A stretch of 14,218 nt of DNA from Promethearchaeota archaeon (GTDB taxonomy: Archaea; Asgardarchaeota; Lokiarchaeia; Sigynarchaeales; SOKP01). A model generated the notes under the pieces. The model was not told the DNA's origin. It worked only from the letters and a program-made list of their open reading frames with translations, and did no database searches. The DNA lies in NCBI GenBank assembly GCA_013375495.1, contig JABXKC010000054.1:1-14218 (forward strand), given 5' to 3'. A program made the translations under genes and the position numbers. Each line of letters begins with the position of its first letter. Within the stretch, counting starts at the first letter, position 1. This document shows positions 1,515 through 13,823 of the stretch, piece by piece.

Positions 1515-2291
1515 ATGGGTAAATTGAAAAAATCTGTTATTTTAGAAAAGAATAATATCATTAGTGAGATTGAAAAAATTGATTTAGACAAAAATCAAAT
1601 TTCAACTAATTCAAAAAATGTCAATAAAGTTATAGGGGGTGGATTTCAATCGAGAAAAACATATGTGGTTTTTGGAGCAAATAAAACAGGAAAAACCCAA
1701 TTGTGTCATCAATTATCAATGCAAGCTTTTCGTAAATCTCAAAAAGTGATTTATTTAGACACAGAAAACACATTTCGTCCCGAAAGGATAAGAGAGTTGG
1801 CAGTTACAAATAATCTTGATGGTGAAAAAGCGTTAAAGAACATTATAGTTTCAAAAATTATGAGTAATACTGCCTTTCTATTAAAATTGAATGAGGTTGA
1901 ATATATAATCGAACGTAATAATATTAAAATGCTAATTGTTGACTCTATCAATAATTATTATAGACTCGAGCGTGGCGATAAAAAAATATCATTTTTTAAG
2001 GCCAGAACAACATTTCTAAAGATTTTAGAAAAAATTAACGATCTAACTCAGAAATATAATTTAATCAACATTTTAACGGCTCAAGTTGCTCCTAATTTCA
2101 ACGAAAACGCAATCATAAAGGAGATTCCTGTAGGAATGCAGTATTTGAATCATTTCTTTTCTGAGTTTCTACATTTAAGTTATAAAGAAAATGACATGAG
2201 TTATATTCATTCAGTAAACTCTCATTTATTACCAGAAAAAAAATTACTTTATAAGATTACAAAAAAAGGATTGGAAGACTATAAAATTTAG
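1515..2291 (+). CDS. RadA/RadB-like recombinase-family ATPase, no HhH domain
   Basis: This 258-residue P-loop ATPase belongs to the RecA/RadA/Rad51 family, whose members bind single-stranded DNA and act in recombinational repair or assist RadA. An entry motif IGGGF (40-44) is followed by Walker A GANKTGKT (54-61), the RadA-like LDTENTFRPER (81-91, with E84 in the place of the catalytic glutamate), Walker B MLIVDS (139-144), NILTAQVA (185-192) in the place of the RadA TNQV strand, and HLLPEKKLLYKITKKGLED near the C-terminus, matching the RadA LPE...ITE.GI.D ending. The N-terminal helix-hairpin-helix domain of RadA is absent, as in RadB. The L2 region (residues 193-212) lacks the usual Gly-Gly pair. 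It may be RadB or an Asgard RadA paralogue. The gene stands alone after a 193-bp AT-rich spacer with no other feature. Confidence 0.85.
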   Translation: MGKLKKSVILEKNNIISEIEKIDLDKNQISTNSKNVNKVIGGGFQSRKTYVVFGANKTGKTQLCHQLSMQAFRKSQKVIYLDTENTFRPERIRELAVTNNLDGEKALKNIIVSKIMSNTAFLLKLNEVEYIIERNNIKMLIVDSINNYYRLERGDKKISFFKARTTFLKILEKINDLTQKYNLINILTAQVAPNFNENAIIKEIPVGMQYLNHFFSEFLHLSYKENDMSYIHSVNSHLLPEKKLLYKITKKGLEDYKI

Positions 2292-2294
2292 ACT

Positions 2295-3134
2295 TTAGCT
2301 TTTTAAATATTTATTCTTAAACATTTCTAAAGTTAAACATTTCAAGTTAACCATGTCGATTTTTGAATTGACGAAATAAACGGGATTATTAATTTTGGGC
2401 AATAACCATTCAATAAGCTTCAATCCATATTGTAATTTCTTTAACTTAATAGGATCTGCTACATGATTCCTTTCCATTTCAAGTTTGCTATACTTGCCAA
2501 CAATATTATTGAAATCCATGCCTATAAGATATACTTCATGTGTAGGAATTAATAAAGAAGAAATAAAAAATAAAATCCTATCACCGTCAGTAAAACCGCC
2601 TGAATTAACAAGATTTTCAACTGGTTTTACTTGGGTCGTTCCTATAATGTTTGGAAAGCTTAAGATTTCGTTCTTAAAATATTTCAACTGGGGGATATTA
2701 TCTCCATGGGCATGAACAATGATAAAATCGGGCTTATCAAAATTGGTTTTAGTGATCCCATCTAAATCCGTAAAAATCGCGTCTATAGGAATTCTCCTTT
2801 CTTTCAATAATCGAGCTGCACCATCAGCAACTAAATTCACTGCATTTTGATAATTATTTTTTTCTTGAATTTTTAGTATATAATGGACAGTTTCTTCAAG
2901 CGAAGGACCACATCCATATATAAAAACATGTTTTTTCCCTTGAATTAATTGTTTAAAAGAAAGTAATATTTCTTCAAGACGCCATTCTTCACTTTTTTCT
3001 CTCAAAATACTAGATAAAAAATCTCTTGCCTCTAGATCTTTTTGATAATCGAAATTTAAATCATTTATTATCTTAAAATACCAATCTTCAAAATCAATAT
3101 GAGAATCTATTTGTTTTTTAATAGAATGCTTCAT
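2295..3134 (-). CDS. mptE: 6-hydroxymethyl-7,8-dihydropterin pyrophosphokinase, archaeal MptE type
   Basis: The 279-residue protein has the ordered motifs of archaeal MptE/DUF115 enzymes: GCGPSL (74-79), ADGA (103-106), TDLDG (122-126), VHAHGDN (140-146), GTTQ (165-168), GGFTDGDR (179-186) and IGMDF (204-208). These enzymes transfer pyrophosphate from ATP to 6-hydroxymethyl-7,8-dihydropterin, a step of tetrahydromethanopterin or folate synthesis in the cytoplasm. The length is a little greater than the roughly 220-250 residues usual for the family, because of an N-terminal helical extension that is also part of the DUF115 architecture. The stop codon lies 4 bp from the stop of the convergent RadA-like gene. 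The gene is divergent from gcvH, whose product works with a C1-carrying pterin. Function is well supported by the motifs; which pterin the host makes cannot be read here. Confidence 0.88.
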   Translation of the reverse strand: MKHSIKKQIDSHIDFEDWYFKIINDLNFDYQKDLEARDFLSSILREKSEEWRLEEILLSFKQLIQGKKHVFIYGCGPSLEETVHYILKIQEKNNYQNAVNLVADGAARLLKERRIPIDAIFTDLDGITKTNFDKPDFIIVHAHGDNIPQLKYFKNEILSFPNIIGTTQVKPVENLVNSGGFTDGDRILFFISSLLIPTHEVYLIGMDFNNIVGKYSKLEMERNHVADPIKLKKLQYGLKLIEWLLPKINNPVYFVNSKIDMVNLKCLTLEMFKNKYLKS

Positions 3135-3267: not shown

Positions 3268-3669
3268 ATGACATATTGGTATACAAAAACCCACCAATGG
3301 TATAATGACGAAAATGGTGAAGTAGGACTTACACCCTATGCAGCTGAGCAATTAGGGGAGATATCCTTTGTGGATGTTGATGCTCTTGAAGGCGCTGAAC
3401 TTTCTCAAGTTACTATGGATGGAAATGAACCATCTTCAGATCCTATTGACGCTACAGTTGAGTCAAGTAAGGCCGTAGGAGACATCTATTGCCCCGTCTC
3501 AGGCACCGTTAAGGAAGTAAATAGTGATTTAATGGATGAACCTGAAAAAATAAACGAAGATGCCATTACTGCTTGGTTATTCAAGGTTGACGCTTCAAAT
3601 TGGGACGCAGAGAAAGGAAATCTATTAGACGAAGCCTCTTATAAATCTTTCGTTGAATCCCTCAGTTAA
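3268..3669 (+). CDS. gcvH: Glycine cleavage system H protein (lipoyl carrier)
   Basis: This is a 133-residue lipoyl carrier. It begins with YWYTKTHQWY, the usual YT.THEW opening, followed by VGLTPYAAEQLGEI, and the lipoylation site is ESSKAVGDIYCPVSG with the modified lysine at K68. It ends with the typical INEDAITAWLFKVD. The H protein shuttles the aminomethyl group of glycine among the P, T and L proteins, the methylene unit passing to tetrahydrofolate or an analogue. About nine extra residues (around 46-60, acidic and Ser-rich) lie before the lipoyl site compared with common H proteins. No gcvP, gcvT, lpd or lipoate ligase gene is in the window. A stand-alone H protein could also serve as a lipoyl carrier in another reaction. 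Confidence 0.93.
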   Translation: MTYWYTKTHQWYNDENGEVGLTPYAAEQLGEISFVDVDALEGAELSQVTMDGNEPSSDPIDATVESSKAVGDIYCPVSGTVKEVNSDLMDEPEKINEDAITAWLFKVDASNWDAEKGNLLDEASYKSFVESLS

Positions 3670-3811: not shown

Positions 3812-4339
3812 TTAAATGTTAAATAATGTCTCTCCAAGCTTAATCGTAATCATTGCTTGGAGTGTGCCGAAAGCAATCAAAATCAAAATAATTCCTACAA
3901 CTAAATATCGTATTGCAATATTCTTATTGTATACATATTTAGATGCCTGATATAACAAAATAAAACCGATAGAACAAAGGAAAATAAAAATCGATGCGAC
4001 GATGCCTTCTATTATGAACGATTCATTAATATCTGGATATAGAAAAAGCGGTTGGCCAGATTGATCAGAACCTAAAGCCGGAACTTCTCTAAATATAAGA
4101 TAAACAATTCCCGTTTGTAAAAGGAACAAAATGATATAAACAGCTATTACTGCGATTGATTTGCCGGGAAGAGGTATATCCATTTTCGAAGTTTTTAAAT
4201 CTGGGAATATAATCTTAGGTTTTCGAAGTGTCTTACCAAAAATCCATGGAGTTTTCCCTCTAATCTTTTCGAAAACAGTCTCTGAACCTATTATTTCTTC
4301 TTTAGTAAGATTTGATTTGTTTTTTCTTTCCTCTTGCAT
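3812..4339 (-). CDS. OSTC-like membrane protein (OST3/OST6 family)
   Basis: This 175-residue protein has a 60-residue basic N-terminal region and three predicted membrane helices (about 61-83, 107-130 and 141-163). Recalled side by side with human OSTC, it shares the layout and several motifs: GIVY at the end of helix 1 (GIIY in OSTC), then EVPALGS (EPPSVGS), a G-x-P turn, ESFIIEGIVAS (QYIMEGLASS) at the start of helix 2, IGFILL (LGFIIL) at its end, and IKL after helix 3 (MKL). In eukaryotes OSTC is a subunit of the oligosaccharyltransferase that joins STT3A to the Sec61 translocon; the related OST3/OST6 (MagT1/TUSC3) proteins bear a thioredoxin domain, absent here. The extended N-terminus (PWIFGK...KPKIIFPDLK) is longer than in OSTC. 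I infer a role in N-glycosylation at the cell membrane. No STT3 gene is in the window. Confidence 0.75.
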   Translation of the reverse strand: MQEERKNKSNLTKEEIIGSETVFEKIRGKTPWIFGKTLRKPKIIFPDLKTSKMDIPLPGKSIAVIAVYIILFLLQTGIVYLIFREVPALGSDQSGQPLFLYPDINESFIIEGIVASIFIFLCSIGFILLYQASKYVYNKNIAIRYLVVGIILILIAFGTLQAMITIKLGETLFNI

Positions 4340-4426: not shown

Positions 4427-5926
4427 CTAGTCTAAATTCTGTAGTAATGCAATTAAAAATTTCCATATTTTCGCAACGCTTTTTATTTTAAGGCGCTCGT
4501 CAGGAGAATGCCCACCAAGTACATCTGGTCCTAATGATATCATCTCCATGTCTGGATAATAATAACTAAAAAAGGCACACTCCAGTCCGGCATGAATCGC
4601 TTGAATAGTTACTTCATTATCAAAAAGATTTTTATATACTTGTTTCGATATCTCAGTTAGCTTTGAGTTAAAATCTGGTGGCCAACTTGGATAGAGAGTA
4701 ACTACTTCAATGTTGATGTCCAACCCAGAGATTTTAAAAATTGTTTTTAGCTTCTCAAACAAAGTATCTTTGTCATATTGTGTTAAACTCCTAGTGCTAA
4801 CTTTAAATTCAATTAGATTTTCTAATGTGTGCACCACAGCAAAATTCAGTGATGTATGAACTAAGCCCTCGCTTGTAGGGTGTAAAGAAATTGGTCCATT
4901 TGGCATTAGATGAAAGAGATCAACTAATCTATTTTGGAAATCCTTTGAAAATGCCGTTTTATCTATAAAATCTTTCATTATATCTAATGAAATTTCCAAG
5001 TTTGAATCTGTTCCTTCATAAAGCATTTTAATATTAGGGATTACACCTTTTAAAAATGCTTCAAGTTCATTTTTTTGACTTTGCTCTATAAATAAAATTG
5101 CATGTGCTTCCCTGGTAATCGCATTAGTTAAATTCCCTCCCTCTATAGAATTTATAAAAACATCAAATTCCGTATTTGTTTTCCATATTACTTCAGCTAA
5201 TATTTTTAAAGCATTCCCTCTGTTTTTGTTAATATCTGACCCAGAATGCCCACCCATTAATCCAGAAACGGATATTTTTACCGCTATTAAATTCACATTC
5301 CTTATTAGTTCTTTCTCATATTTTATATTGCCTATAAAGACTCTTCCACCAGCACACCCAATGGTAAATCTATCATCTTCTTCAGAATCAAGGTTTAATA
5401 AATATTTACCACTTATCAATTTTTTATCCATTTGGCTTGCACCAGAAAGACCTCTCTCCTCATCGACAGTGAATAATAAATCTAGATCAATACCACCAAA
5501 ATCTAAACTTCCATCGCGAATCTTTTTCATAATAGTCAGCTGATACGCGATCCCAACACCATTATCAGCACCTAATGTAGTGCCCTCTGCGGTTAGCCAT
5601 TTTTCATTGTCTATCTCAAGAAGCTTAAGTTTAAGAGAATCTTTCGCAAAGTCGTGTTGAGTTCTATCATGTTTTTCACATACCATATCCATATGACTTT
5701 GTAATACTACTTTCAATTTTTCAGCTTCCTTATCACTTTTACCAGGAATTCGAACTACTAAGTTTTGAATTTTATCTACCTCAGTCCGGTAACCCATTTT
5801 TTCCGCTTCCTTTAAAATATACTCTCGAATTATCTCTTCATGCTGAGAACATCGGGGAATTTTTGTAATTTCGTAAAAGTATTGCCAAAATTCTAACGGC
5901 TCGCCAAAATCTTTTAAATCTTCCAT
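4427..5926 (-). CDS. pepD: Xaa-His dipeptidase, M20C family (PepD-like)
   Basis: This cytosolic zinc metallopeptidase of 499 residues resembles PepD (aminoacyl-histidine dipeptidase), near the usual length of about 485. Numbered from the ATG at 5926, metal ligands and catalytic residues are visible: H78 and D80 in QSHMDMV, D121 in GADNG, the E156-E157 pair in VDEERGLSG, D180 in NLDSEE and H473 in LGGHSPDERL. The lid domain starts with SGLMGGHSGSDINKNRGNA. Such enzymes cleave dipeptides and short peptides during amino acid recycling. A TTG at 5941 would add five residues, but it lies only about 11 bp from the TATA box, whereas the ATG at 5926 is about 25 bp away and suits a leaderless transcript. 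The family is chiefly bacterial, so the gene may have been acquired. The gene is divergent from the zinc-finger gene. Confidence 0.92.
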   Translation of the reverse strand: MEDLKDFGEPLEFWQYFYEITKIPRCSQHEEIIREYILKEAEKMGYRTEVDKIQNLVVRIPGKSDKEAEKLKVVLQSHMDMVCEKHDRTQHDFAKDSLKLKLLEIDNEKWLTAEGTTLGADNGVGIAYQLTIMKKIRDGSLDFGGIDLDLLFTVDEERGLSGASQMDKKLISGKYLLNLDSEEDDRFTIGCAGGRVFIGNIKYEKELIRNVNLIAVKISVSGLMGGHSGSDINKNRGNALKILAEVIWKTNTEFDVFINSIEGGNLTNAITREAHAILFIEQSQKNELEAFLKGVIPNIKMLYEGTDSNLEISLDIMKDFIDKTAFSKDFQNRLVDLFHLMPNGPISLHPTSEGLVHTSLNFAVVHTLENLIEFKVSTRSLTQYDKDTLFEKLKTIFKISGLDINIEVVTLYPSWPPDFNSKLTEISKQVYKNLFDNEVTIQAIHAGLECAFFSYYYPDMEMISLGPDVLGGHSPDERLKIKSVAKIWKFLIALLQNLD

Positions 5927-5946
5927 AATTGTCGCTTCCAATGAAA

Positions 5947-6024: not shown

Positions 6025-7137
6025 ATGAGTAGTTATAAAGACATTTATTCAGAGGTTAAAAAGCGTAAAATGGAAGCACTTGATAAAAAAGACGTTGTAA
6101 AAGCAGTAGAAAAGCACGGTAAAATACTTGCGATTGAAGGTCGTTACGAACACCCTAGAAAGGTGATAGATCACATGTACGCCGCGAAACACATCACTAT
6201 TAAACCAAAGGATATCATGAAACACAATTTAAGTGATTACGATGTTGTGTTGATTGGATGCCCCGGAGACAAAATCCCGCATTCTGCATTCCCAAAAATC
6301 AGTGAATATGTGTCTTTAAAAGGAGGTTGGTTAATTACAACTGATTGGGCTTTAAGACATATAGTTGAAAACATTTTTCCTGGTTATATTAGATGGAACC
6401 AACAAAAAACTGCTGATGCTGTTGTCGCGTGCCAAATTGTTGAACCAAATCACCCCTTCTTAGAGGGTGTACTAAGCGAAATACAACAAGCTAAATGGCA
6501 AAAAATGACAGCTAAAGACACAAAGAAAGCTGAATTTAAGTGGTGGCTTGAAAATAGGTCGTTTCCAATACAAGTTCTTAACCCTGCAGTTCGTGTCCTA
6601 ATCCGGTCTTATCAAATTCAAAAAAAATGGGGTGAAGATCCAGTTCTTTGTTACTTTGACCATGGAAACGCTGGAGGACGTGTTATTCATTTAATTTCTC
6701 ACACGCATCTACAAAAAGGAGGAGCAAAAGGAAAATACGCTTCAGCTCTAATTTTAACCAATATATTGGATGAAAAAGTATCTACAAAGATGGGAATTTC
6801 GAAAGCACCCACAAAAGGGTACGTATCTGATTGGGAACAACCTGAACATTATACTCAACCACAACAAGCATCCCCCTCTGTATCAAATGAACAATACTTA
6901 AACCCTTCCACTCAAAATATGGGGTTAACAGGAACGGCGCAAATAGTCGAAGTGAATGCTAATGACGCCAATTTTTCATATGCAGATAAATGTAGTTACT
7001 GCGGATATGATTATGGCGAATACACAGGAAAAATTTATAAGTGCCAATCATGTGGTACGACTTACCACGAAAATTGTCTCAATATGCAAATTAATGAAGG
7101 AACATGTAAAAACTGTGGAAAGATTTTACTTTGGTAG
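6025..7137 (+). CDS. GATase1/ThuA-like domain fused to C-terminal RING/PHD-like zinc finger
   Basis: This 370-residue two-part protein has a Rossmann-like N-terminal region (about 32-265) showing features of the class I glutamine-amidotransferase/ThuA superfamily: a strand KILAIEG (33-39), DVVLIGCPGD (73-82) with a Cys after the strand, GGWLITTDWAL (100-110), HPFLEGV (143-149) and GGRVIHLISHTH. A Gln/Pro/Ser-rich linker (about 280-315) leads to a zinc finger with the order C323-x2-C326, C340-x2-C343, H348-x2-C351, C361-x2-C364. This Cys4-His-Cys3 layout, with CGTTYHENC, resembles prokaryotic RING fingers and also PHD or RING-variant fingers. The catalytic triad of a true amidotransferase is not evident, so the N-terminal part may bind a ligand. 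A GAGGA element 7 nt before the ATG supports the start. Ubiquitin-ligase activity is possible but unproven; no ubiquitin, E1 or E2 gene is nearby. Confidence 0.75.
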   Translation: MSSYKDIYSEVKKRKMEALDKKDVVKAVEKHGKILAIEGRYEHPRKVIDHMYAAKHITIKPKDIMKHNLSDYDVVLIGCPGDKIPHSAFPKISEYVSLKGGWLITTDWALRHIVENIFPGYIRWNQQKTADAVVACQIVEPNHPFLEGVLSEIQQAKWQKMTAKDTKKAEFKWWLENRSFPIQVLNPAVRVLIRSYQIQKKWGEDPVLCYFDHGNAGGRVIHLISHTHLQKGGAKGKYASALILTNILDEKVSTKMGISKAPTKGYVSDWEQPEHYTQPQQASPSVSNEQYLNPSTQNMGLTGTAQIVEVNANDANFSYADKCSYCGYDYGEYTGKIYKCQSCGTTYHENCLNMQINEGTCKNCGKILLW

Positions 7138-8320: not shown

Positions 8321-9442
8321 ATGGTCAATATTAAAGAAAAATGGAACTTCCATTCCAGTGAATCGATTCTTGGGATTGAAATAGGAGATCTCAATAATAA
8401 TAGTCAAAATGAAATTTTAGGATTCTCCAAATCCGGGAAACTTCTTGTTATTTCACTAAGTGGTAAAAAAATAACCGAATTAGACATCTTAGAAAATTCA
8501 CCAATTTGGCAAGCAAAAATATGTGATATTGATCGTGACAATAAAAACGAAGTAATTTTAGGGGGTTTAGATGGTCTCTTAAGAACATTCAAATCTAGCA
8601 CCTCTTATGAATTACAACCTTTATGGGCACATCAATTTGGTGCCTCTATAAGTGGATTCTTTCTTGCAGATGTTAATGATGATTGTTATGAAGAAATCAT
8701 AGCTTATTCAATTGATAAGAGTATACGATGTTTAAATTCCATGGATGGATCTTTATTATGGGGACAATTGTTTGAAGATGGAATTGGTGATGCCATTATA
8801 TGGAAAGATACTATAAAACCTTCTAGAAAAGAGATAATAGCGTGCGGGAATGACGGAACTATCCGCAGTTTTAAAGGAGAAAATGGTGAACTCAGTTGGT
8901 TCAAGCGGTTTAATGATAAAATTCGTTGTGTTTCAATCCTACTATCAAATGAAAAAGATATGATTGTCTGCGGAGGAGATGAAAAACAACTTCATATCCT
9001 TGATAGAAATACACAAGAAGATATATTATCGCTTCAATTCGATGACTTCGTTTGGAAGTGTTTGTCGTTTCCACCTGAAGAGAAATCAAATTTATTGGTA
9101 AGCACCTACTCCTTTAGCTTTTTTGACGATTCTCTTAAAATCGAGGATATCAAATTTAGTTCAAAAATAATGTGTTTAAATTCTGATTTAAAGAAAAAAT
9201 GGGAGATTTTGAATATAAACGTAGAATGCATACTGCTTACTAAAATGTTTTCGAATAACTATATCATTATTGGAACTACTAAAGGGAATCTTTTAATCTT
9301 GGAAGCTATATCTGGTAAAGTTGTTGCTGAAATTAATAAAGACTCCTGTGTTAATGACATGAAATATGATTCAGAGTTAAATACTCTTATTAGCTCTCAT
9401 GATAACGGTTCTATATTCGCTTACTTTTTAGGTAAGTCTTAA
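8321..9442 (+). CDS. Cytosolic beta-propeller protein with FG-GAP-like repeats
   Basis: This 373-residue protein consists of repeated beta-blade units without a signal peptide, so it is probably cytosolic. The N-terminal half has three FG-GAP-like loops with an Asp/Asn-rich calcium-binding style and a trailing acidic-hydrophobic pair: GDLNNNSQNEIL (22-33), CDIDRDNKNEVILG (68-81) and ADVNDDCYEEII (116-127). Each is followed by a strand such as GLLRTF or SIRCLN. Later blades (IIACGNDGTIRSF, MIVCGGDEKQLHIL, IIIGTTKGNLLIL) look like PQQ/WD-type blades, suggesting a seven-bladed fold. The repeats recall eukaryotic FG-GAP propellers such as ITFG2 or BBS subunits, but the likeness is only at the level of the repeat. 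It probably acts as a protein-interaction scaffold. An AGGTG precedes the ATG. The amidotransferase gene follows 38 bp downstream and may be co-transcribed. Confidence 0.75.
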   Translation: MVNIKEKWNFHSSESILGIEIGDLNNNSQNEILGFSKSGKLLVISLSGKKITELDILENSPIWQAKICDIDRDNKNEVILGGLDGLLRTFKSSTSYELQPLWAHQFGASISGFFLADVNDDCYEEIIAYSIDKSIRCLNSMDGSLLWGQLFEDGIGDAIIWKDTIKPSRKEIIACGNDGTIRSFKGENGELSWFKRFNDKIRCVSILLSNEKDMIVCGGDEKQLHILDRNTQEDILSLQFDDFVWKCLSFPPEEKSNLLVSTYSFSFFDDSLKIEDIKFSSKIMCLNSDLKKKWEILNINVECILLTKMFSNNYIIIGTTKGNLLILEAISGKVVAEINKDSCVNDMKYDSELNTLISSHDNGSIFAYFLGKS

Positions 9443-11649: not shown

Positions 11650-11967
11650 CTATTCTCCGGATTCCTCTTCAGCAGCTAATTCCTCTTCCAATTCTTCGAG
11701 TGGAACTGGTGCGGGGGTCGTAAGCATGCTATAACCAATCCAAATAGCAATTATAGCAATTAATAGTACCATAATCCAGAGTGGTAGAACGGTAAATAGT
11801 CTGTAATCGAGCCAATCGACCTCAAAAAGCCGGAAAATATTATCCCAATTTGGGTTACCCCCCAGCGTATTAAAATATAAATCCACAACACTTCCCATGG
11901 TGTAGATAATAGCGATTAGGATGCCGAGGATCATAACGATTGCTCCAATTATTTTGTCTTTAGCCAT
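11650..11967 (-). CDS. Small two-helix membrane protein with acidic tail
   Basis: This 105-residue protein starts MAKDKIIGAIVMILG. It has a first helix at about 7-30, an outer loop with FNTLGGNPNWDN and FEVDWLDYRLF, a second helix at about 60-82 ending in IWIGYSM, then TTPAPVP and a strongly acidic C-terminus (about residues 89-105, mostly Glu). The start at 11967 is preferred because AAAGGTG lies about 6 nt upstream on the minus strand. An ATG at 12036 would add 23 residues that are Lys/Leu-rich and unlike the rest. No family name is certain. The tail could bind a basic partner. The gene has its own T-rich terminator and faces away from the kinase-cupin operon. Confidence 0.72.
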   Translation of the reverse strand: MAKDKIIGAIVMILGILIAIIYTMGSVVDLYFNTLGGNPNWDNIFRLFEVDWLDYRLFTVLPLWIMVLLIAIIAIWIGYSMLTTPAPVPLEELEEELAAEEESGE

Positions 11968-12134
11968 ATTAAACACCTTTATGAGTTTCAGACATTCTTT
12001 TTTTCTTGTAATTTCGAGCAAGTTTACTTTGCTCAATATTATTTTTAAAATTATATTAAATTAAAACCATTCGTTAAGAATTACTTGGTTTTAATTGTGA
12101 TGAACCATAAATTGATAATATAAAAGCAAGATTG

Positions 12135-13148: not shown

Positions 13149-13823
13149 ATGAGGGAAGAGACGCTTCAACCCAACAAGGGTACAAACCTTAGAAAAAATG
13201 GAAACGAGGAACTTAAATTATCGATTGATTCTAAATCTCTAAATAAAATTTTTCTTGTAAACGGAACATCTTTTTTTGCGGGACAATTAAAAGAGGCTAA
13301 CTTAAAGATAAAACCAAACGATTATTACATGATAATTAACAAATGGGATAAGGATGTAAAAGTAAATTATAGTACTAATATAGCAAGTCATAAAATAATA
13401 TATCAACCGTATAAATTCGAATTTATGAAAAAAGAAAAATTTGACCCGGTGGAATTTAGTAAGAAACATAATGTACCAAGCGGATATATTGATGTATTGA
13501 ATAAATGGTACAGCATTAAATTCACTTATAGTGATTATAGTCTAATATTTATCAAACCAGAGATTGGTATTTCAATACAAATTCACCAACATAGAAGTGA
13601 ACATTGGAAAATTCTGGAAGGCAACCCAATTATAATAAATGCTAACAAAGTTCATTATTTTGTGGAAAAGGGAACAGAATTTTTAAACGCAAAAATGACC
13701 TATCACTCAGTGCTGAATCCTAATAAAAATCCTGAACAATTCGTAATAATAGAAGAAAAGTGGAGCGGGAAATTCGACGAAGAAGACATAACTAGAGTAT
13801 TCAACCCTAATAATTATTATTAG
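13149..13823 (+). CDS. Cupin protein, type II phosphomannose-isomerase-like
   Basis: The C-terminal half of this 224-residue protein is a cupin like the isomerase domain of type II mannose-6-phosphate isomerases (the ManC/AlgA C-terminus). The metal-binding motif G140-x5-H146-x-H148-x2-E151-x6-G158 (IQIHQHRSEHW) is present. A later H186 (TYHSVLNP) fits the fourth ligand, and EEKWSGKFDEEDITRVFN is the typical end. The N-terminal half (about 30-90) has beta-strands that may be a second, decayed cupin. The guanylyltransferase domain of bifunctional ManC is absent. The probable reaction is fructose-6-phosphate/mannose-6-phosphate isomerisation or another sugar-binding role. The gene starts 10 bp after the kinase stop codon, so the two are probably co-transcribed and the pair suggests a sugar pathway. 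Confidence 0.8.
   Translation: MREETLQPNKGTNLRKNGNEELKLSIDSKSLNKIFLVNGTSFFAGQLKEANLKIKPNDYYMIINKWDKDVKVNYSTNIASHKIIYQPYKFEFMKKEKFDPVEFSKKHNVPSGYIDVLNKWYSIKFTYSDYSLIFIKPEIGISIQIHQHRSEHWKILEGNPIIINANKVHYFVEKGTEFLNAKMTYHSVLNPNKNPEQFVIIEEKWSGKFDEEDITRVFNPNNYY

Follow-up and report, generated by a model that had tools for sequence, protein, structure and literature searches.

Which eukaryotic protein does a small membrane protein from a Lokiarchaeial genome most resemble, and what might it do for N-glycosylation? The question is raised by a minus-strand gene at positions 3812 to 4339 of a 14,218-nucleotide stretch of DNA from a Promethearchaeota archaeon (contig JABXKC010000054.1; the whole stretch is called the window below). 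An earlier note, made from the letters of this DNA, had read the gene as an archaeal homologue of OSTC (DC2), a subunit of the eukaryotic oligosaccharyltransferase (OST). The observation was confirmed and its interpretation is supported. Judged by sequence, the Asgard protein matches OSTC significantly and better than it matches OST3/6, which is thinly sampled here. It is probably an Asgard OSTC-form member of the OSTC/Ost3-Ost6 family that packs on STT3/AglB and couples it to SecY/Sec61. The gene family is already known, under the names Asgard 'Ost3' or 'OST3/6'; what is new is that its OSTC-type form extends throughout the Asgard phylum. Homology, domain make-up, predicted fold, spread and gene neighbourhood are established in what follows.

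The open reading frame (ORF) runs from an ATG at 4339 down to 3812 and encodes 175 residues, with the following parts.

3812..4339, minus strand: OSTC-type OST subunit, 175 residues (Pfam, PDB and 44-member profile matches)
4169..4339, minus strand: basic N-terminal tail, residues 1-57, presumably cytosolic, with PW..G and RKPK conserved in close relatives (alignments, net charge, low-confidence model)
4091..4168, minus strand: transmembrane helix 1, residues 58-83, containing GIVY (predicted model)
4040..4078, minus strand: hairpin, residues 88-100 with strands 88-91 and 97-100, on the presumed outer side (predicted model; compare the DC2 hairpin at the SEC61 plug, PMC12804085)
3938..4030, minus strand: transmembrane helix 2, residues 104-134; E111 and G125 do not vary across the 44-row alignment (predicted model and conservation)
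3836..3925, minus strand: transmembrane helix 3, residues 139-168; in the same alignment G149 does not vary and K167 hardly does (predicted model and conservation)

Five motifs had been said to follow the order of human OSTC, and HMMER indeed pairs GIVY (residues 77-80), EVPALGS (85-91), ESFIIEGIVAS (106-116), IGFILL (124-129) and IKL (166-168) with GIIY, EPPSVGS, QYIMEGLASS, LGFIIL and MKL. The three proposed membrane helices recur in the predicted model. G77, E111, G125 and G149 are invariant across the 44 aligned Asgard members, and P41, P56 and K167 are nearly so. The N-terminal tail, which the earlier note called long, basic and cytosolic, is basic, with a net charge of +5 across residues 1-56, and is net positive in 44/44 aligned members, where its length ranges from 24 to 72 residues with start codons unverified. 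The cytosolic side we infer from charge, which would give three helices with the N-terminus in the cytosol and the C-terminus outside.

Sequence searches place the protein in the OSTC/Ost3-Ost6 family and, within it, nearest to OSTC. Pfam PF04756 (OST3_OST6) matches at 41.4 bits, above its gathering cut-off of 27, with an E-value of 1.6e-10. This match is confined to the last three helices (profile positions 180-289 of 294), in agreement with the earlier statement that the OST3/OST6 thioredoxin domain is missing; NCBIfam gave no match. A single-sequence search of the PDB returned mammalian OSTC (E 1.7e-8 and 2.8e-7), while MAGT1, Ost3 and Ost6 were not found up to E 10. A profile of 44 diverse Asgard members matches human OSTC over residues 12-144 (76.8 bits, E 1.2e-20), canine OSTC from helix 1 onward (66.5 bits) and MAGT1 less well (31 bits, E 1.4e-6), and leaves yeast Ost3 and Ost6 unmatched up to E 10. 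One 114-residue ORF (L067) was excluded from the alignment, and L018 and L069 from the 44-row version. Loci L116 and L117, stubs of 10 bases, were set aside.

Short hydrophobic proteins can yield spurious matches, and weak ones were seen here (insulin receptor, CP24), which raises the possibility of chance likeness among three-helix membrane proteins. The best spurious match has an E-value of 0.0079 against 1.2e-20 for OSTC with the 44-member profile, the membrane core of the window protein retains a z-score of 15.1 to OSTC over 200 composition-preserving shuffles, and in Foldseek the OSTC/Ost3-Ost6 family alone precedes the noise. On these three grounds chance likeness, whose probability we consider negligible, was rejected.

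The predicted structure points to the same family. A moderate-confidence model matches the OSTC fold in its membrane part, as well as the Ost3/6 folds. The first eight PDB matches in Foldseek are four chains of OSTC, two of Ost3, one of Ost6 and one of MAGT1, with OSTC at the top (8b6l_J, E 1.6e-4); chain names were assigned through sequence searches, that of Ost6 by entry title. Both Foldseek and the VIA-align comparison cover the listed chains only. An earlier model built from 27 close sequences (mean predicted local distance difference test score, pLDDT, 62.9) was superseded.

Could the protein instead be an Asgard orthologue of Ost3/Ost6 (TUSC3/MAGT1) that lost its thioredoxin domain, a redox-free subunit of OST-B type? 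Pairwise comparison argues against this. By raw score OSTC beats MAGT1 for all 44 Asgard membrane cores, the 44-member profile prefers OSTC by 46 bits, and by z-score OSTC leads in 43/44, with medians of 12.65 for OSTC and 4.35 for MAGT1. Human OSTC and MAGT1 are themselves related at a z-score of 4.8, so the likeness between the Asgard proteins and OSTC far exceeds that between OSTC and MAGT1. The window protein also has no fused lumenal thioredoxin domain and shows three helices in the model, not four.

The distribution of the family bears on this alternative as well. A protein search at E <= 0.01 gave 369 relatives, of which the 120 listed are 162-178 residues long, and a genome scan gave 24 loci, 23 in Lokiarchaeota or Lokiarchaeia and one in a Njordarchaeum. 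A profile of 27 close relatives found the subunit in 176/227 Asgard genomes and the 44-member profile in 207/227, with open frames of 139-219 residues in all 150 rows tallied from the latter scan. Fifteen pattern matches in viral contigs included no relative. PF04756 itself matches in 214 of the 227 genomes, in 171 above cut-off, and among the rows listed each match covers the membrane part or the thioredoxin part, never both. Some thioredoxin-part matches extend to about profile position 180, across stop codons, and those at four loci (L103, L104, L109, L115) are separate ORFs of 144 to 149 residues. A 336-residue open frame in genome G184 was considered as a candidate fused form and set aside, since its 276-residue ORF shows the membrane part alone in Pfam. 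With no fused form among the rows listed, a loss of the thioredoxin domain would have to date from early in the history of the phylum, and we consider it unlikely that the protein is such a reduced Ost3/Ost6 orthologue. Tandem OSTC-type copies occur in one Asgard group (L067 at 4718 and 5184; L101 at 3709 and 4347), and second copies lie on separate contigs in G114, G115, G121, G123, G124 and G129.

Descent does not fix function, and a member of this family might serve a different task: it might transport Mg2+, for instance, or act as a scaffold that has nothing to do with N-glycosylation. MAGT1 is described as a Mg2+ transporter in the accessible text of a 2025 paper (PMC13022745), and the nearest neighbours in the window encode GcvH, an MptE-like enzyme, a Rad51-type ATPase and an M20 peptidase, none of them for glycosylation. 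Against such a task stands the company that the gene keeps elsewhere. STT3 was detected in 204/227 Asgard genomes, with a single match in most genomes having one, and ribophorin I in 127/227. The earlier note had proposed co-occurrence with STT3 as a check, and both genes are found together in 192 to 195 of the 227 genomes, the range being due to three unlisted genomes. Their joint absence exceeds chance (p 2e-4), a pattern that incomplete genomes could also produce. STT3 lies on the same contig in 41 of the 110 genomes with both rows typed and within 6 kilobases (kb) in 32; 31 of these 32 near STT3 genes are on the same strand, 2.4-5.3 kb from the OSTC-type gene. Distances were taken between the low ends of matches and are not intergenic gaps, only part of the listed rows were typed, and the counts come from related genomes, not independent events. 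Ribophorin I is on the same contig in 27/83 and within 35 kb in 22/83, 20 of these on the opposite strand. In G112 (L123, 9752-13964) it adjoins a Trm112-like gene and a glycosyltransferase family 4 gene, the latter presumably of the Alg7/GPT type. We regard a task outside N-glycosylation as improbable.

Three observations touch on these genes. Genomes G176-G178 each show three or four STT3 matches. In G178 and G179, unlike in most other rows listed, a single ribophorin I match spans almost the entire Pfam profile. The 2025 paper counts MagT1 among the Mg2+ transport proteins whose ancestry is nonprokaryotic (PMC13022745), an odd placement given the Asgard homologues of its membrane part.

Several points weigh against an OSTC-type subunit working with STT3. 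One core of the 44, L065, has a higher z-score for MAGT1 (4.5) than for OSTC (3.5). The OST3/6 sample consists of one full core, MAGT1, and one partial core, yeast Ost3, used in the tree only, and the OSTC sample comes from animals only. The model has a mean pLDDT of 70.3 and a predicted template modelling score of 0.49, its first 57 residues are poorly placed, and structure comparison alone is a tie between OSTC and MAGT1. The N-terminal segment by itself resembles OSTC weakly, as 36 of 1000 shuffles score at least as high (791 were reported with a score), and it was dropped as stand-alone evidence. A search for KCP2, the partner of OSTC, matched 0/227 genomes, but no control matched either, so absence of KCP2 is not demonstrated. 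As for gene order, the STT3 neighbourhood comes almost wholly from one lineage: 30 of the 31 same-strand cases fall in one block of genomes (G181-G223), and the members of this block that were sampled for the tree group together there as a single clade. FolP and MptE lie on the other strand between the OSTC-type gene and STT3 in the loci read, and the two genes are thus not one operon.

The tree addresses where the eukaryotic subunits came from. Eukaryotic OSTC falls within the Asgard rows with modest support (87/87), in a comparison set without TACK archaea and, the partial yeast Ost3 excepted, without non-animal eukaryotic OSTC or OST3/6; the eukaryotic proteins, where the organism is named, are from animals (among 120 of 1169 matches listed). 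A topology that unites all eukaryotic rows in one clade passes the approximately unbiased test (p-AU 0.53), and the tree therefore does not decide which form came first, OSTC or thioredoxin. A reading that we hold to be nearly as likely as not is that an OSTC-type gene was duplicated and one copy, fused to a thioredoxin and one further helix, became the thioredoxin-bearing Ost3/Ost6 as a later paralogue of eukaryotes; co-translational glycosylation would then predate the endoplasmic reticulum (ER), with post-translational OST-B derived. If the Asgard subunit is OSTC-type, the physical tie of glycosylation to the export channel could be an archaeal inheritance and the redox domain a eukaryotic addition. 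The stripped-down form across Asgard genomes suggests that the linker may predate the ER.

What might the subunit do? In yeast, three Ost3 helices touch STT3 helices 10, 11 and 13, and Ost3 helices 3-4 are docked against Sec61, while in mammals the link to the translocon is made by DC2 and KCP2 (both PMC7226087, accessible text). According to the accessible part of a recent structural study (PMC12804085), DC2 places its hairpin against the displaced plug of SEC61alpha, and its N-terminus runs along the membrane to KCP2. By analogy, we infer that the Asgard OSTC-type subunit would pack on the transmembrane part of STT3/AglB, as OSTC does on STT3A, and would keep STT3/AglB beside the SecY/Sec61 channel. 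Sequons might thereby be glycosylated on chains just emerging from the channel. The closest competing role would be that of a purely structural partner of STT3 with no translocon coupling. The same STT3 site together with SecY/Sec61 coupling is the most economical reading, because the modelled parts match those of DC2, a proven KCP2 partner excepted.

The immediate surroundings of the gene in the window are as follows.

1515..2291, plus strand: Rad51/RadB-type ATPase, a conserved neighbour in Loki-type loci
2295..3134, minus strand: MptE-like 6-hydroxymethylpterin diphosphokinase, a conserved neighbour in Loki-type and Thor-type loci
3268..3669, plus strand: glycine cleavage H protein (GcvH), a conserved neighbour in Loki-type and Thor-type loci (Pfam, locus comparison)
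4427..5941, minus strand: M20-family peptidase, a conserved neighbour in Loki-type loci

In 23 of 24 loci (the window and L001-L023) GcvH flanks the OSTC-type gene, always on one and the same side and in some with a gene-sized space between; L022 has none of the neighbours sought. Where the contig permits, Loki-type loci have MptE and the Rad51-type gene beyond GcvH and the M20 peptidase on the opposite side. Ten loci that we call Thor-type from an inferred lineage (L081-L089 and L102), with Pfam names read for one of them (G185), run topoisomerase, OSTC, MptE, FolP, GcvT and GcvH, followed in eight by STT3. FolP, MptE, GcvT and GcvH stand between the OSTC-type gene and STT3 in these ten and in L124. 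None of the 16 further window ORFs scanned matched another OST subunit above the Pfam cut-off. Other window genes deserve mention. At 6025-7137 (plus strand) is a 370-residue protein with a zinc-finger-like C-terminal end (C1 and PHD below cut-off); in Loki-type loci its gene stays next to those of the M20 peptidase and the OSTC-type subunit. A beta-propeller at 8321-9442 (plus) narrowly exceeds the cut-off for two BBSome components, BBS2_Mid at 35.3 bits and BBS7 at 28 bits (cut-off 27 each), along with many generic propeller profiles. A small membrane-protein-like ORF at 11650-12036 (minus) matches PIG-P, a subunit for glycosylphosphatidylinositol-anchor synthesis, at 17.4 bits, below the cut-off of 39.3. 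At 13149-13823 (plus), after a PfkB-family sugar kinase, is a domain of mannose-6-phosphate isomerase C-terminal type (43.6 bits, cut-off 23.6).

Asgard OST subunits have been published before, as the earlier note had stated; the papers are cited here for their accessible text. For the non-catalytic subunits, Lombard (2016) did not find any promising candidate among prokaryotes (PMC4973528). OST3 or Ost3/6 was named in Asgard archaea by a 2022 genome paper (PMC8813620) and a 2022 paper on Agl24 (PMC8993221). Eme et al. (2023) gave Ost3 (Tusc3) as previously reported and added five further subunits (PMC10307638). Carilo et al. (2024) predicted OST1, OST3/6 and STT3 in MK-D1, and OST1 and OST3/6 also in TACK archaea, and localised MK-D1 OST3/6-EGFP to the ER of HeLa cells (PMC11417166). 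A 2025 preprint associates the core OST complex with Asgard archaea, "OSTC" there denoting the complex and not the subunit (PMC12338589). Paper searches, which did not extend to subscription papers and supplements, turned up nothing that describes the Asgard form as OSTC-type or as free of the thioredoxin domain.

How, then, does the window protein compare with the known subunits? Its family is very probably the same as the Asgard 'OST3/6' of Eme et al. and Carilo et al.; in the accessible text of these papers it is named Ost3 (Tusc3) or OST3/6, with OSTC undiscussed. If the Asgard subunit is OSTC-type, the label 'Ost3/6' names the less similar eukaryotic counterpart. Ost3/Ost6 and MAGT1/TUSC3 share the Pfam family and a similar fold of the last three helices, whereas the window protein has neither the thioredoxin domain nor the first helix, and the sequence similarity is weaker. 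Metazoan OSTC of OST-A is closer, with a similar length (149 residues against 175, and frames of 139-219 in the Asgard relatives), three predicted helices, the first two joined by a hairpin, and, likewise, no thioredoxin domain. By majority, the 44 Asgard rows carry the same GG.Y in helix 1 and the same EG where helix 2 begins; the window protein itself has TGIVY and EG. Compared with OSTC, the N-terminal tail is longer in Loki types and Asgard genomes mostly have a single STT3 match. The archaeal protein, unlike OSTC, sits in the cell membrane.
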